DNA of 64,000 nucleotides, taken from the NCBI RefSeq assembly GCF_003073135.1, contig NZ_PGDQ01000004.1, forward strand, positions 298,363 to 362,362. The letters are read 5' to 3'. The notes under the pieces were generated by a model that saw only the letters and a program-made list of their open reading frames with translations, was not told the origin of the DNA and searched no databases. The DNA is from Euzebya rosea. GTDB taxonomy: Bacteria > Actinomycetota > Nitriliruptoria > Euzebyales > Euzebyaceae. The translations under genes were made by a program, and so were the position numbers. Shown one piece after another: positions 30,006-37,921 of this stretch (positions within the stretch are counted from its first letter, which is position 1; each line of letters begins with the position of its first letter).

Positions 30006-30056
30006 CCTTCGGGTCCTGAACACACCGCGTGGCGGACAGGAGTACCGTCCTCGCCC

Positions 30057-30076
30057 CCGATGTCGCGGGACATCGG
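30057..30076 (+). other. Perfect hairpin upstream of the clostripain-like gene
   Basis: CCGATGTC and GACATCGG flank a GCGG loop, 21 bases before the ATG at 30098. It may be an operator or a leader stem. Confidence 0.35.
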
Positions 30077-30097
30077 CTGACGAGAACGCGGGCAACG

Positions 30098-32233
30098 ATG
30101 AAGATGCACGGGACAGTGGCCCTCCTGCTGGTGATGGTGCTGCTGGCAGCAGCGTGCTCGGGCACCGATGACGGATCCGTGGACGACACGGTGGCCGAGG
30201 AGGCCCCGGCGGTCGTCGAGGACGGTGGCGTCGCCGACGAGGACGACCCGGGGACGGACGAGGCTGCCGAGGACGACGATCGGTCCGGTGACGGTGGGGG
30301 AGCGGACGGCACCCTCGTGGGTGATGTCGGGTTCGGGCTCGACGTCGACCCGCTCGAGCCCGAGTCGTGGACCTACATGCTGTACTCCATCGCCGACACC
30401 AACCTCGAGGAGCCGATGCTGGAGGACGTCGCCGAGATGGCCACCGTCGGTTCGCCCATCGGCGTCAACACCGTCGCGCTGGTCGACCGCGAGGCCGGCC
30501 ACACCGACCAGCCGCTGCTGAACCTCGACGACTGGGAGACGGCCAAGCTGCTGTACGTCCAGGCCGACGAGTTCGCCGAGATCGCCGACCTGGGTGAGCT
30601 CGACATGGCCGATCCGACGACGTTGGCCTCCTTCATCGCGTTCGCCGTCGAGACCTTCCCGGCCGACAACTACGCCCTGACCATCTCCGACCACGGTGGC
30701 GGCTGGACCGGCATCGGCCCCGACGACAGCAGCGGGGAGGTCCTGGACCTCAGCGAGATCGCCGCGGGCCTTGACGCCGGCCTGGACGCCGCTGGGCTGG
30801 AGCGCATCCAGCTGCTGGGCTTCGACGCCTGCCTGATGGCCACCTACGAGGTCGCCAGCGCGCTCGCCCCCTACGCCGACTACATGCTGGCGTCGGAGGA
30901 GCTCGAACCGGGACACGGCTGGGACTACGGCGCGCTCGGCGCGATCGCGGCCGACCCGACGATCGACGCCGCAGGGCTCGGCGCGGCGTTCGTCGACGGG
31001 TTCGTCGGCCAGGCCGACGCCCAGGGCACCGGTGCCGAGATCACCCTCTCGCTGCTGGACCTCGCCGGCATGTCGGCGCTGGAGGAGGCCATGGCCACCT
31101 TCGCCGGCACGCTGGCCGAACAGGTCGAGGGCCTCGGGGTGCTGATCGGACGACAGCGGGCCAGCACCGTGGAGTACGGCCGCTCGCCCGATCCCTCCCA
31201 GAGCACCCACCTCACCGACCTCGGCCAGTTCGTCGCCGAGATCGGCGTGCAGAGCCTGCAGGTGTCCGACGAGGCCGACGCGGTGCTGCGGGCGATCAAC
31301 GACACCGTCGTCGCCCAGACCGTCGGTCCGGCCCGGCTCGGGTCGACCGGCATGTCCATCTACTTCCCACCCAGCGACGACCTGGCCGATGGCGCGTACC
31401 TGCAGGTGCCCGGCAGCGAGGCCTGGGCCCAGTTCCTGACCGCCTACTACTCCGCGGGACAGTCCATCCCCGCCGACAGGCAGCCGGTGGCCCTCGACCA
31501 GGAGGTCGTCTCGCAGCCCGCACCGGACACCGACGGCGAGGGGCTGGGTGCCGACGGTGCCGAGCCGAGCGTGGTCGGGGCCGACGCCACCGTGACCGAC
31601 GTCGAGGGTGGCGTGGAGGTCACCGTCCAGCTGGACCCGGCATCGTTGGAGAGCGTCGTCGACGCCCGCCTGTCCTTCGGCTACATCGACCCCGAGGACG
31701 GCGCGATCGTCCAGCTCGGCGACACCGCCGCGGAGATCCTCGAGGACGGGACCGTCGTCGGGTTCACCGACCTGACGGTCCTGACCCTGACCGACGCCGA
31801 CGGTGACTCCGTCGACGCCTACCTGGAGCTGGACTTCGACGAGGAGGGCACGCTGGCCTTCGCGAGCGTGCCGCTGGACTACCAGGCGCCCGGATCCGAC
31901 GTCGTCGCGCCGGTCGACCTGTCCATCGTGCTGGATGCCGAGACCGGTGACGTCCTGCAGGAGGTCTACTACCTGCTCGACGAGGAGACCGGGTCCTACG
32001 GGGAGCTGCAGGCCGACCCCACGGCCCTCATCGCCCCGGTCGTGCTCGTGTACCTGCCCGACGGCACCGTGGAGTGGGCGGCCTACGGCGACGGCGCCCT
32101 CTTCGCCGACCTGCCCACCCTGCAGTACGGCCTGGAGCTGCTGGACCCCGGAACCGAGATCTACGTCGACCTGACCGTCACCGACTACGGCGGCAACCAG
32201 CTGATCGCCTCGGCGACGTTCCTGCAGGAGTGA
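30098..32233 (+). CDS. Clostripain-like (C11) cysteine peptidase lipoprotein
   Basis: 711 residues. A type II signal peptide ends in the lipobox LLAAAC, so the protein is anchored outside the membrane. An Asp/Glu/Thr-rich linker follows, then a caspase-fold C11 domain. The catalytic pair is H199 in SDHGGGW and C245 in FDACLMATYEVA. The region SEELEPGHGWDY follows as in clostripain relatives. The last ~180 residues form one or two beta-sandwich domains. C11 peptidases usually cut after Arg; here specificity is unknown. The neighbouring secreted S8 protease suggests an extracellular proteolysis function. Confidence 0.85.
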   Translation: MKMHGTVALLLVMVLLAAACSGTDDGSVDDTVAEEAPAVVEDGGVADEDDPGTDEAAEDDDRSGDGGGADGTLVGDVGFGLDVDPLEPESWTYMLYSIADTNLEEPMLEDVAEMATVGSPIGVNTVALVDREAGHTDQPLLNLDDWETAKLLYVQADEFAEIADLGELDMADPTTLASFIAFAVETFPADNYALTISDHGGGWTGIGPDDSSGEVLDLSEIAAGLDAGLDAAGLERIQLLGFDACLMATYEVASALAPYADYMLASEELEPGHGWDYGALGAIAADPTIDAAGLGAAFVDGFVGQADAQGTGAEITLSLLDLAGMSALEEAMATFAGTLAEQVEGLGVLIGRQRASTVEYGRSPDPSQSTHLTDLGQFVAEIGVQSLQVSDEADAVLRAINDTVVAQTVGPARLGSTGMSIYFPPSDDLADGAYLQVPGSEAWAQFLTAYYSAGQSIPADRQPVALDQEVVSQPAPDTDGEGLGADGAEPSVVGADATVTDVEGGVEVTVQLDPASLESVVDARLSFGYIDPEDGAIVQLGDTAAEILEDGTVVGFTDLTVLTLTDADGDSVDAYLELDFDEEGTLAFASVPLDYQAPGSDVVAPVDLSIVLDAETGDVLQEVYYLLDEETGSYGELQADPTALIAPVVLVYLPDGTVEWAAYGDGALFADLPTLQYGLELLDPGTEIYVDLTVTDYGGNQLIASATFLQE

Positions 32234-32377: not shown

Positions 32378-35300
32378 ATGCGTCTGTCTGCCGTCAAAAC
32401 TGCATTGGTGTCCGGGGCGTTGGCGCTCGGGCTGCTTCCGGCAGCCCTCGCCACGCCCTCGACGGCCGAGCCCGCGGACTCGTCCGTGGACACCTCGCCC
32501 TCCGGGACGGTGTTCTCCGGGACGGTCGAGCAGACCTGGTCGCCCGGCGAGCTCGACGTCGACTGGGCGGCCTTCGCCGCCGAGCACCGCGAGGAGTTCG
32601 AACGCAGCGAGTTCGCGTCCGCCGGGGCCGACAGCACCGCAGCCCGCGACGCCGCTCGGGACGCCGTGCAGGCGGAGTACCTCGGCGAGACCAGCAGCGA
32701 CTCGACGTTCAGCTCGCTGGAGCAGCAACGGTCCGGCGCGATCGCGCAGCAGTACTACGACGAGTGCGACGACGGCACCAACCTGCCGAACAACGGGGTC
32801 CAGGCCAACCGCCAGCTGCTGTTCCGCGGTGGCTCCGACGGGGTCTTCGGTCCCAGCTACAACGTGCCGAACCCGGGCGGCAGCGGCAACGAGCCCCCGC
32901 CCCGGATCGACCTCCGCAGCATGTTCATCCTGCAGACGACCGACGACGGCGGGCGCTTCGACCAGACCGCGTTCCTCGTCTACGCCTGCCAGGAGTGGGG
33001 CAACACCGACCTCGGTGCAGGCGGCATCACCTTCGGCCTCTACGTGACCGCCGAGGAAGGCGAGACCCAGTACCCCACCGTCCTCGGTGACCCCGAGGAG
33101 GGCCCCGACTTCGTCGTCTCCATCTTCCCCGAGAACAACGTCCCCGGTCGGCCGCTGCAGATCATGGCCGTCCGCACCCCCTCGCGGAACGCCTCGACGT
33201 GGACGGTCACCTGGCTCGACGAGGCCCAGCGCCTCGACGGCTACGAGATCGACGGCGTGGTGCCCACCAGCGCCATCGGTGACTTCACCGCCGACTCCGG
33301 GTTCGCCTGGACCGTCGAGGTCGTCGACACCCAGACGCCGGAGGGCGGTCGCGACTGGTTCCCCGAGCGCAACTACCTGATCCGCGTCGGCGAGGGCGAC
33401 AGCGCCGTCGAGGGCACCCACGTCCCGCAGTTCCCCGTCCCCGAGACGTGCGGCCTGCAGTCGGAGTCCGCGGTTCGCTACAACCTCGAGCCGCAGGCCA
33501 TCCCCAACGACGACGGGTACCCGGTGCAGTGGTACCACCCGCAGATCGCCACCCCGGCGGCGTGGGACACCATCCGTGACTCCTCCACCGGTGGTCGCAC
33601 CCGTCCGGTGACGGTGGCCGTCATCGACTCGGGCATCGACTCCACCCGGTTCGACTTCCTCGCCGGCGGCGCCCGTGTGGTCGCTGGCCTCGACGCCGTC
33701 TACGGCCTCGAGCTCGAGGGCGGCAACAACGGCGGCGCCATCGGCCCGTTCGTCGGCCCGCAGGCAACCGGCTACGAGTCCTTCGGTGCGGCGGCCCCAC
33801 CGCGCAACTCCGACCGCGGCCCCCACGGCACGGCCGTGGCCAGCCTGATCGGCGCGACCGGCAACAACACCATCGGCATCGCCGGCGTCGACTGGGGCGT
33901 CCGCCTGATGCCGATCCGCGTCAACGACGTCAACGAGTGCATCGACAACGTCGTGGTGGCCGAGGGCATCAAGTGGGCCGTCGACCACGGCGCCGACATC
34001 ATCCACATCTCCCTCGGCTCGCCCGAGACCGCCGACGGCAGCGGCAGCGACCTGCAGCCCGAGTGCAACGACGGCGTCGACAACGACGGCGACGGGACCA
34101 CTGACGGCGACGACCCCGGCTGCGTGAACGAGCAGGACGGGTCGGAGGGGCCGGGCGACAACGCGCCCGACAGCACGCCCGAGCAGGTCGCCGCCTGTGC
34201 GGACCACCGCGACAACGACGGTGACGGCGTGGTCGACCTGGCCGACGCCGACTGCGAGGACGCCAACGACAACTTCGAGTCCCCGCAGACCCCGCTGGTC
34301 CAGCCGGCCGAGCCGATGGAATGCGCCGACGGCATCGACAACGACGGCGACGGATTCGTCGATGCCACCGACAACGCCGACCTCGGCACCGTGGCCGACC
34401 CGGGCTGCGAGGGCGAGGACGACGGATCCGAGGGCCCGAGCCTGGAGTTCGTCGGCACGATCGACGAGCTGGCCCCGGCCTGTGCGGACGGCCGCGACAA
34501 CAACGACGACGACGTCCTGGCCGACGCCGAGGACGCCCAGTGCCTCAACGCCACCGACAACAACGAGGGCCGTGACGAACGCGTCGTCAACGTCGACCCC
34601 CTTCGCGAGGTCATCGACTACGCACTGGAGCAGGGCGTGCCCGTCGTGGCCGCAGCCGGCAACCGTGGCGCCGACGACGACCCCGTCTTCTACCCGGCCG
34701 CCTACCCCGGTGTCCTGACCGTCGGGGCCAGCGACCGGTCCGGTGAACGGTCGTTCTACTCCTCGACCGGCCGGTGGCTCGACATCATCGCCCCGGGCGG
34801 CAACAACCAGGGCACCCTGTCGCAGGACATCGCGGCGCTCTGGGAGCTCGACCGCATCCGTCCGGTGGCTGGGACGAGCTTCGCCGCGCCCCTGGTGACC
34901 GGTGCCGCGTCCCTCTACCTGGGCCTCAACCCGCACATCACCCGAGGGTTCACCCCGTCCGCCCAGCCGCCCGCGCCGGGCGCCAACCTGCCCGACATCG
35001 GCTACCAGCGCACCGTCGACGACGTGAAGATCGCGCTGCAGAACGGCGTCCGTGACCTGTTCCCGCAGGGCCACGACATCTTCAACGGCTGGGGACGCCT
35101 GAACGTCGATCGGGTGCTGGACATCCCGGCGCTCGGTGGCCCGCTGGTCGACCCGGCCCGGCTGCAGCTGCCCCGCACCAACGCCGACTCGGTGATCGAG
35201 GTGGCCGAGGGCGTCGCCCTGTCGCGGCCGCTCGTCTTCCCCGACTTCGTGGTGCTGACCCGCAACGACGTTGCCGTCGACGCCCTGGCGGGTGCCTCGC

Positions 35301-36100
35301 TGCTGCGCGGCGGCCCGCTGCTGGTCTCGACCCACGATGCGGTGAGCGACTCGACCATGGCCGCCATGGCCGAGGTCCTGCCCAACGGCGGCCGTGTCTA
35401 CGTCCTCGGTGGCGACGCGGCGCTCAGCGCCGACATCGACACGCAGCTGGCCAGCCACGGCTACGAGGTCGTGCGCCTCGCCGGTGACTCCCGTGTGGAC
35501 ACGGCGTTGGCCATTGCCGAGGAGGTCCGGCGGATCTACCCGGGCTCCACCACCGTGGCGCTGGCCCGCAGCGACGGCGGCAACGACCCGACCGCCCAGT
35601 GGGCCGATGCCCTCAGCGGTGGCGCCTGGACCGCCAGCACCGGGACACCCCTGCTGGTGACCCCGAGCGACCAGCTGCACCCCGGTGTCGCCGACGCGCT
35701 CCAGCGCTGGGGCATCGAGGAGACGATCCTGTTCGGCGGCGAGGCCGCGCTGGGGCAGGCCGTCGAGGGTGCCGTCCCGGGTGCCCGCCGGATCGGTGGT
35801 GCCGACCGTGCCGAGACGGCCGCGATGATCGCCGAGGACCTGTGGGGCGAGACCGACGGCTTCATGGTCGCCAACGGCTACTACGCCAGGGGCTGGCCGG
35901 CAGGCCTGGCAGCCGCGGGCTGGAGCGCCGACGTGAACGCCCCGCTGCTGTACACGGGTGCCGACTCCGTGCCCCAGGCCACGGTCGACGTGCTGGCGGC
36001 GACCTGCCCGGACACCGACTCGATGCAGATCGTGGGTGGCGCATCGCTCGTCACCGGGTCGGCGGAGACCCAACTGCTGGAGGCTGCGACATGTGGCTGA
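32378..36100 (+). CDS. Secreted S8 serine protease with Asp-rich insert and cell-wall-binding repeats
   Basis: 1240 residues. Signal peptide MRLSAVKTALVSGALALG, then ~380 residues of pro-region. Triad: D417 in AVIDSGID, H483 in RGPHGTAVAS, S834 in GTSFAAP. Between His and Ser a segment at about residues 563-731 carries four Cys- and Asp-rich units (DGVDNDGDGTTDGDDPGC type) that look like calcium loops. H-to-S spacing is 351, against about 157 in subtilisin. The C-terminal ~295 residues form three cell-wall-binding repeat 2 units (PF04122 type), which attach proteins to the wall. The start at 32378 is preferred over 32366 because GGAG sits between them. Probably a wall-bound processing protease. 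Confidence 0.9.
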   Translation: MRLSAVKTALVSGALALGLLPAALATPSTAEPADSSVDTSPSGTVFSGTVEQTWSPGELDVDWAAFAAEHREEFERSEFASAGADSTAARDAARDAVQAEYLGETSSDSTFSSLEQQRSGAIAQQYYDECDDGTNLPNNGVQANRQLLFRGGSDGVFGPSYNVPNPGGSGNEPPPRIDLRSMFILQTTDDGGRFDQTAFLVYACQEWGNTDLGAGGITFGLYVTAEEGETQYPTVLGDPEEGPDFVVSIFPENNVPGRPLQIMAVRTPSRNASTWTVTWLDEAQRLDGYEIDGVVPTSAIGDFTADSGFAWTVEVVDTQTPEGGRDWFPERNYLIRVGEGDSAVEGTHVPQFPVPETCGLQSESAVRYNLEPQAIPNDDGYPVQWYHPQIATPAAWDTIRDSSTGGRTRPVTVAVIDSGIDSTRFDFLAGGARVVAGLDAVYGLELEGGNNGGAIGPFVGPQATGYESFGAAAPPRNSDRGPHGTAVASLIGATGNNTIGIAGVDWGVRLMPIRVNDVNECIDNVVVAEGIKWAVDHGADIIHISLGSPETADGSGSDLQPECNDGVDNDGDGTTDGDDPGCVNEQDGSEGPGDNAPDSTPEQVAACADHRDNDGDGVVDLADADCEDANDNFESPQTPLVQPAEPMECADGIDNDGDGFVDATDNADLGTVADPGCEGEDDGSEGPSLEFVGTIDELAPACADGRDNNDDDVLADAEDAQCLNATDNNEGRDERVVNVDPLREVIDYALEQGVPVVAAAGNRGADDDPVFYPAAYPGVLTVGASDRSGERSFYSSTGRWLDIIAPGGNNQGTLSQDIAALWELDRIRPVAGTSFAAPLVTGAASLYLGLNPHITRGFTPSAQPPAPGANLPDIGYQRTVDDVKIALQNGVRDLFPQGHDIFNGWGRLNVDRVLDIPALGGPLVDPARLQLPRTNADSVIEVAEGVALSRPLVFPDFVVLTRNDVAVDALAGASLLRGGPLLVSTHDAVSDSTMAAMAEVLPNGGRVYVLGGDAALSADIDTQLASHGYEVVRLAGDSRVDTALAIAEEVRRIYPGSTTVALARSDGGNDPTAQWADALSGGAWTASTGTPLLVTPSDQLHPGVADALQRWGIEETILFGGEAALGQAVEGAVPGARRIGGADRAETAAMIAEDLWGETDGFMVANGYYARGWPAGLAAAGWSADVNAPLLYTGADSVPQATVDVLAATCPDTDSMQIVGGASLVTGSAETQLLEAATCG

Positions 36101-37068: not shown

Positions 37069-37094
37069 CCGCCATCAGGACGTCCTGATGGCGG
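37069..37094. terminator. Perfect 26-bp palindrome between convergent genes
   Basis: CCGCCATCAGGAC followed directly by its complement GTCCTGATGGCGG. It contains the stop codon of the minus-strand YbjQ-like gene (37075-37077) and lies 15 bases after the plus-strand lipoprotein stop. It is a likely bidirectional terminator. Confidence 0.6.
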
Positions 37095-37527
37095 TGCCGT
37101 AGCAGATGACCTCCGACGCACCCAGCGTGATCGTGCTGGTCTCGAACCGGACGTTGACGACCATGCTCGCCCCAGCCGCGATCGCCTCCTCGACCATCCG
37201 GAGCCGCGCCTCACGACGTCCGCGGTCCAGGACGGGGGACAGGGCACGGACCTCACCGCCGACGAGGCTGCGCAGGGATGCGGCCAGCCGCTTGTAGTAG
37301 TCGGTGGCGATCACGACGCTGCCGGTGACGAACATCGCCCCGGACTGGACGGTCGTGCCGACGGGCGGCCGGCTCAGGTCGGTGACCGGCACGTGTGCGG
37401 TTCGCTGCTCGCGTTCGGTGAGGTCGGCGAGGTGGGCCCGTTCCCGTTGCTGGCCGACGAGGCCGCCGATGACGAGCAGGGCGATGGGGACCCCCAGCTG
37501 GAGGAGGGGGATGAAGAACGCCTCCAC
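37075..37527 (-). CDS. YbjQ/UPF0145-like protein with N-terminal membrane segment
   Basis: 150 residues. One hydrophobic N-terminal helix (LQLGVPIALLVIGGLVG), a charged linker, then the YbjQ-type fold: GSVVIATDYYKRLAASLRSL, LVGGEVRALSPVLDRGRREA, and EEAIAAGASMVVNVRFETST. The role of this family is unknown, although it is sometimes labelled heavy-metal-binding. It follows a soluble paralogue at a 2-bp distance. Confidence 0.72.
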   Translation of the reverse strand: MEAFFIPLLQLGVPIALLVIGGLVGQQRERAHLADLTEREQRTAHVPVTDLSRPPVGTTVQSGAMFVTGSVVIATDYYKRLAASLRSLVGGEVRALSPVLDRGRREARLRMVEEAIAAGASMVVNVRFETSTITLGASEVICYGTAIRTS

Positions 37528-37529
37528 GG

Positions 37530-37883
37530 CTACATGCCCGGCGCGGTGTGGGCGCCGCTCGGCTGGATCGTGACGGCGGTGCCGTAGGCGTACAGCTCCG
37601 CAGCGCCACCGGCGACCTGGCTGGTGGTGAACCGCACGTTGACGATGGCGTTGGCCTGCAGCTGTTGCGCCTGCACGATCATGCGCTGGACGGCCTCGTT
37701 GCGGGCCTCGACCATCAGCTCGGTGTAGGCCGTCAGCTCACCGCCGACGATGTTCTTCAAGCCGGCGCCGATGTCACGGCCGATGTTCTTGGCGCGGATG
37801 GTGTTGCCCTGGACGAGGCCGCGCAGCCCCACGATGTCGTATCCGGGCACGGTTTCGGTGTTGACGAGGATCACGGCCCGCAT
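37530..37883 (-). CDS. YbjQ/UPF0145 family protein
   Basis: 117 residues, the whole protein being one YbjQ fold: TETVPGYDIVGLRGLVQGNT, NIGRDIGAGLKNIVGGELTA, and NAIVNVRFTTSQV near the end. These proteins form pentamers; function unknown. The ATG at 37883 places the first strand correctly; the frame extends 10 codons further upstream. Confidence 0.82.
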   Translation of the reverse strand: MRAVILVNTETVPGYDIVGLRGLVQGNTIRAKNIGRDIGAGLKNIVGGELTAYTELMVEARNEAVQRMIVQAQQLQANAIVNVRFTTSQVAGGAAELYAYGTAVTIQPSGAHTAPGM

Positions 37884-37921
37884 CCTTGCAGGTCGGCCCG
37901 CCGCAGACCGCACCCGGACGG

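Follow-up and report, generated by a model that had tools for sequence, protein, structure and literature searches.

An acidic repeat array set into the catalytic domain of an S8 protease of the genus Euzebya: a candidate calcium-stabilised module at the rim of the substrate groove

Results

The protease gene and its surroundings

We analysed a 64,000-nucleotide stretch of the Euzebya rosea genome (hereafter, the window). A single open frame on its plus strand (Table 1) spans the whole of 34064–34569, an interval in which a first-pass annotation had reported calcium-loop-like repeats inside a protease. The frame encodes, in order, a signal-like N-terminus, an uncharacterised N-terminal part, an S8 domain that holds the insert, and CWB2 repeats. 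The Pfam profile Peptidase_S8 (PF00082) scored 135.5 bits against a gathering cut-off of 21.8; the triad D421/H487/S838 and the oxyanion N766 are intact, and their columns are invariant in 80 aligned rows. The first-pass annotation had picked out the right catalytic residues as H483 and S834; counted from the first ATG rather than, as it apparently did, from Met5, these are H487 and S838. The core also keeps Asp430 and Asn501, the equivalents of BPN' D41 and N77, which we take to be side-chain ligands of the ordinary high-affinity calcium site of subtilisin (site A). An identity as a mycosin was rejected, as the TIGR03921 score of 143.1 bits lies below the curated cut-off of 278.75. The ~330 residues that separate the signal sequence from the S8 domain match no Pfam family; they are conserved across the genus and may form the propeptide. 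In one genome, G000, the query protein had 147 matches, most of them in the CWB2 part, and this genome is rich in CWB2 surface proteins.

A plus-strand gene for a C11 (clostripain family) protease directly precedes the S8 gene; it adjoins the S8 gene in G001 as well and was not detected within 1.5 kb of the orthologues L007 and L008. The downstream neighbour is an unassigned, lipoprotein-like ORF conserved at L006 and L010. Two neighbouring YbjQ (PF01906) genes lie further along the window, and scans for Rfam families and tRNAs over its 64 kb gave no match. Overall, the surroundings suggest no dedicated system around the S8 gene.

Table 1. Features of the S8 protease locus, in window coordinates. 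Ligand positions are the eight described in the text.
Feature	Details	Positions	Strand	Basis
C11 protease gene		30029..32233	+	
S8 protease ORF	1244 aa	32366..36100	+	ORF list, translation, Pfam
N-terminal part	~330 residues	32480..33450		
Catalytic Asp421		33626..33628	+	aligned-piece D60 invariant, 80/80 rows
Asp430	equivalent of BPN' D41	33653..33655	+	alignment to BPN'
Catalytic His487		33824..33826	+	invariant column, 80 rows
Asn501	equivalent of BPN' N77	33866..33868	+	alignment to BPN'
SLG substrate-binding strand	BPN' S125–G127; directly 5' of insert	34010..34018	+	
Whole insert	residues ~555–745, replacing BPN' ~131–134	34028..34600	+	alignments to BPN'
Unit 1	C567–C586; 7/8 ligand positions D/N/E; tail with DGSE	34064..34123	+	
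Region of direct repeat	71 bases, units 2 and 4	34180..34535		
Unit 2	C611–C630; 8/8 ligand positions D/N/E; tail with DNFE	34196..34255	+	
Unit 3	C653–C681; 7/8 ligand positions; 9-residue longer loop; tail with DGSE	34322..34408	+	
Unit 4	C706–C726; 6/8 ligand positions without gap; tail with DNNE	34481..34543	+	
Oxyanion-hole Asn766		34661..34663	+	invariant column, 80 rows
Catalytic Ser838		34877..34879	+	invariant column, 80 rows
CWB2 cell-wall-binding repeats	3 stretches, best 1037–1134; approximate limits	35243..36094	+	Pfam
YbjQ genes (PF01906)	two, neighbouring	37075..37913	-	

Four repeat units interrupt the catalytic domain directly after the SLG strand

Alignment to BPN' broke off at residue 130 and restarted at 135 (131 and 134 with a four-row profile), placing the insert inside the catalytic domain rather than behind it as a tail, as had been proposed. 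A loop of ~4 residues in subtilisin is thereby replaced by ~191 in this protease. The first-pass annotation had described ~170 residues with four Cys/Asp units; all four were recovered within residues 567–735 (169 aa), and only the extent needed correction, the real interruption being ~20 residues longer than the interval given. The insert begins three residues past SLG, and the core is re-entered before the helix that leads to N766. In subtilisins, the SLG strand lines the S1–S4 subsites, so that an insert at this position presumably comes out on the groove's non-prime rim.

From cysteine to cysteine, units 1–4 measure 20, 20, 29 and 21 residues, and in every unit the second cysteine is followed by an acidic D..E tail. 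The pattern is far from chance: a loose version of it occurs four times in the protein and at most once in any of 20,000 shuffles of the protein or the insert, and a strict version occurs twice, against never more than once in 20,000 shuffles. The profile NF033662 (acid_disulf_rpt; curated cut-off 41) matched the insert alone in four stretches at 72.3 bits (E = 1.9e-20) and the whole protein at 59.9 bits; single units alone stay below the cut-off. No Pfam family was found in the insert at E values up to 1, and the TSP_3 profile was not matched.

The units also differ in their likeness to one another: units 1 and 3 are 69% alike and units 2 and 4 55%, and a 71-base direct repeat, with copies 73% alike and 285 bases apart, pairs units 2 and 4. 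The simplest account of the sequences would be that the four-unit array is a duplicated two-unit block, or that two other species of the genus, described below, lost a block.

The units resemble calcium loops of teneurin-4

When the insert was searched against PDB sequences at E values up to 10, it matched three teneurin sequences only, the best being 7PLP (E = 0.0025). In the cited description of the teneurin-4 C-rich domain, three crystallographic calcium ions have named ligands, sites I and II are called thrombospondin type 3 (T3)-like and site III LDL-receptor-A-like, and six cysteines pair 1-3, 2-5 and 4-6 (PMC9058538). Eight side-chain ligand positions between teneurin C838 and C857 could be transferred to the protease. 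The 20-residue Cys-to-Cys unit lies in register with teneurin, and six to eight of the eight positions carry D, N or E; in unit 4, one extra residue precedes the equivalent of D851, and alignment brings an Asp back there. The two proteins differ in that teneurin has six cysteines in one domain, whereas the protease has two per unit in two or four copies. Membership of the teneurin C-rich domain family was therefore rejected, as teneurin's other four cysteines are absent from the units.

At the level of sequence, the reading of the units as putative calcium loops is thus well supported. The likeness to thrombospondin type 3 loops put forward in the first-pass annotation holds by way of teneurin sites I and II; its second analogy, to EF-like loops, is weaker, the insert being blank in Pfam at the threshold given above. 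The acidic tail, which likewise follows many NF033662 units elsewhere, may supply a further calcium ligand.

Orthologues carry two or four units under purifying selection

The protein is present with its insert, and with the catalytic residues kept, in all four genomes sampled from the genus (G000–G003). G000 and G001 have four units and G002 and G003 have two. Beyond the genus, the family's one genome of another genus gave no S8 match at E ≤ 1e-20, and among 66 genomes of the class, the same threshold was passed only by the four from the genus, apart from one partial match to the second S8 half. Across 246 genomes of the phylum, a profile search at E ≤ 1e-25 gave only G000 and G003 among the matches listed. 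L006, the 96% identical orthologue from G001, keeps the catalytic serine and has GSS as its catalytic motif where the window protein has GTS, the difference lying at the equivalent of T837.

Comparing the window protein with L006 gave a dN/dS of 0.061 for the insert and 0.027 for the rest (dS 0.38 and 0.40), and comparing L007 with L008 gave 0.447 for the insert and 0.321 for the core. The insert is thus under purifying selection, somewhat weaker than that on the core in both pairs. None of the seven insert replacements between the window protein and L006 falls on a ligand position, a count that is not significant by itself. In the second unit of L008, three D positions hold N, N and S. Because of these changes and the variable unit number (two or four), no exact set of sites appears to be required.

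Within-domain repeats were seen only in this genus

The repeat family and the enzyme family are both known; their arrangement is new to our samples. NF033662 repeats occurred in 30 of 396 genomes of the phylum and 53 of 399 of another class, and in 11/24 and 3/39 in further sets (the sets overlap). After duplicate removal, 77 repeat-bearing ORFs remained, a count that covers only matches with a locus, many further NF033662 matches being present. An S8 domain was found in five of them and in none of the other 72. Three of the five are the orthologous group described here (L006 was collapsed into L005). The remaining two, from other Actinomycetota, are L062 (of which L061 is a near-copy) and L222; in both, the repeats follow the S8 domain and do not interrupt it. 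Elsewhere in the sampled Actinomycetota, NF033662 units share the profile match and the look C.DG.DND.DG..D..DPGC....D.dE, and lie outside S8 domains, whereas a repeat array within an S8 domain, beside the groove, was seen in our samples only in this one genus. This is the outcome, for the sampled Actinomycetota, of looking for the same insert in other S8 proteins. Also in G000, L004 (G000:C6:357118-357183) has one single repeat in a CWB2-like protein without an S8 domain.

The loop itself is unusually long. In a census of 117 S8 ORFs (14 unmeasurable), the distance from SLG to the Asn motif was below 50 residues in 97 other ORFs (largest 47) and 126 and 211 here, in a sample whose loci were mostly chosen at PF00082 E ≤ 1e-40, which favours uninterrupted domains. 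In the longest of the others, the S8 protein L129 (G000:C5), this loop is likewise enlarged and acidic, with 47 residues between the SLG-like and Asn motifs, and has no Cys units.

Other searches returned no further case. Scanning genome contigs with the orthologue alignment gave 77 stretches that matched a pattern, none of which was confirmed. A second pattern, of SLG, ~8–18 residues and a unit (GAC/AAC codons), matched no stretch in viral contigs, a negative of limited reach, since the pattern was built on the orthologues and covers GC-type codons and one site only, and since records from kin of the window may be absent from the contigs. Its sole match in genome contigs, L071, was rejected, since by eye the repeat-bearing frame shows no S8 features. 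With tblastn, the insert matched nothing among plasmids and phages, and the S8 piece matched four plasmid records in its second half only. Literature searches found nothing on the acidic double-disulfide repeat, and text matches to DNDGDG were unrelated by title; thrombospondin was absent as a term among the matches listed for subtilases with calcium insertions, and no related work was found on Euzebya subtilisin (by title) or under domain-insertion terms.

The predicted core is that of a subtilase

We used an AlphaFold model built on an 80-row alignment of S8 rows and orthologues, in which only four rows cover the insert. Isolated repeat segments were left out of the alignment, because adding them shifted S8 rows out of register locally. 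For alignment A2, S8 rows were required to span fewer than 300 residues from His to Ser, which excludes large inserts by construction; 25 loci gave no row, four duplicate rows were dropped and two near-copies were removed by hand. The mean pLDDT was 68.2, with most core blocks at 82–97, some core loops at 46–76 and the insert blocks, in a model with four covering rows and no calcium, at ~30–57. A model from the four orthologues alone had a mean pLDDT of 28 and was set aside.

The model core superimposed on thermitase with Z 41.4 and an rmsd of 1.4 Å over 276 residues, and the fold therefore accommodates the insert. Triad, oxyanion Asn and core fold are shared with thermitase and subtilisin. 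In a structure search with the model, the matches listed were filled by subtilases and teneurin was not among them, so that the search is uninformative on the insert.

Discussion

We propose that the insert is a calcium-stabilised accessory module at the groove rim of an exported S8 protease held at the cell wall, a reading to which we give a probability of roughly 55%. The gene product would be exported and retained at the wall, with the catalytic-domain loop right after SLG given over to an acidic array of putative one-disulfide repeats. Each unit would most likely wrap calcium as the loops of the teneurin-4 C-rich domain and thrombospondin type 3 do, its two cysteines pairing. Outside the cell, where calcium is millimolar and conditions are oxidising, folding of the array would give a stiff module, resistant to proteases, on the non-prime rim. 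There, it may stabilise the long loop and limit or position large substrates, taking no part in the chemistry. Weighing against such a module are the insert's low pLDDT (~30–57), its variable unit number and its weaker constraint relative to the core.

The idea of a rim module draws, by analogy, on two other subtilases. Calcium-binding insertion loops are described in the cited texts as required for the folding of Tk-subtilisin and PfSUB1 (PMC4024747; PMC10580911), and PfSUB1 is characterised there as a calcium-dependent subtilase with an activity-regulating disulfide loop beside the oxyanion Asn (PMC4024747). Going by these accounts, the Euzebya protein shares with both enzymes the setting of extra calcium-type loops into an S8 catalytic domain. 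It differs from PfSUB1 in scale and place: loop 1 of SUB1 is given as 24 residues, and the window protein has ~190 residues of modular repeats after SLG. Loop 1 precedes the catalytic His in the SUB1 numbering.

A different role for the repeats would be docking, in which they bind a putative surface partner or substrate as an exosite and calcium only holds their shape. The CWB2 repeats in the same protein agree with such a role, and the finding that 72 of the 77 repeat-bearing ORFs of the sampled Actinomycetota lack an S8 domain fits a general-purpose surface module; we nevertheless regard docking as rather unlikely.

The PfSUB1 precedent, calcium-dependent and with its regulating loop next to the oxyanion Asn (as far as the cited text goes; PMC4024747), would also suit a putative calcium and redox switch. 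Deprived of calcium or disulfides, the insert would be unfolded and would disturb the SLG strand and S1–S4, so that the protease would become active only once outside the cell, where calcium is plentiful; the insert's start three residues after SLG and its re-entry before the N766 helix place it well for this. The insert may gate activity in this way. However, the unit number is halved in two species, and the core keeps D430 and N501, so that any calcium dependence, as suggested in the first-pass annotation, need not stem from the insert, and an effect of EDTA would not be specific to it. We therefore consider the switch improbable. More doubtful still is an extended version, a modular calcium/redox gate in which a rim of countable units, grown from two to four by block duplication, would be latent inside the cell and set substrate size outside.

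The insert could also be a passive spacer, a flexible surface loop rich in acidic residues that the enzyme tolerates, that lacks specific metal binding and that plays no part in activity. Such a spacer would fit the low insert pLDDT, the differing unit numbers and the shorter extensions that this loop has in other S8 proteins (the longest, in L129, with 47 residues between SLG and the Asn motif), and is quite unlikely in view of the non-random Cys/Asp pattern, the NF033662 score above cut-off, the purifying selection and the retention of the insert in 4/4 genomes.

The calcium-stabilised rim module, if correct, would extend a known theme. In a few subtilases, folding is under the control of calcium-binding insertion loops; were the insert to work in the same way, this genus would have reached the same solution from ready-made repeats, in variable number and at another site, next to the groove. 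Orthologues with two and with four units exist in nature and can be compared directly. As far as the literature searched shows, the repeat family is otherwise named only through its profile, and the protease gives it a bacterial context.
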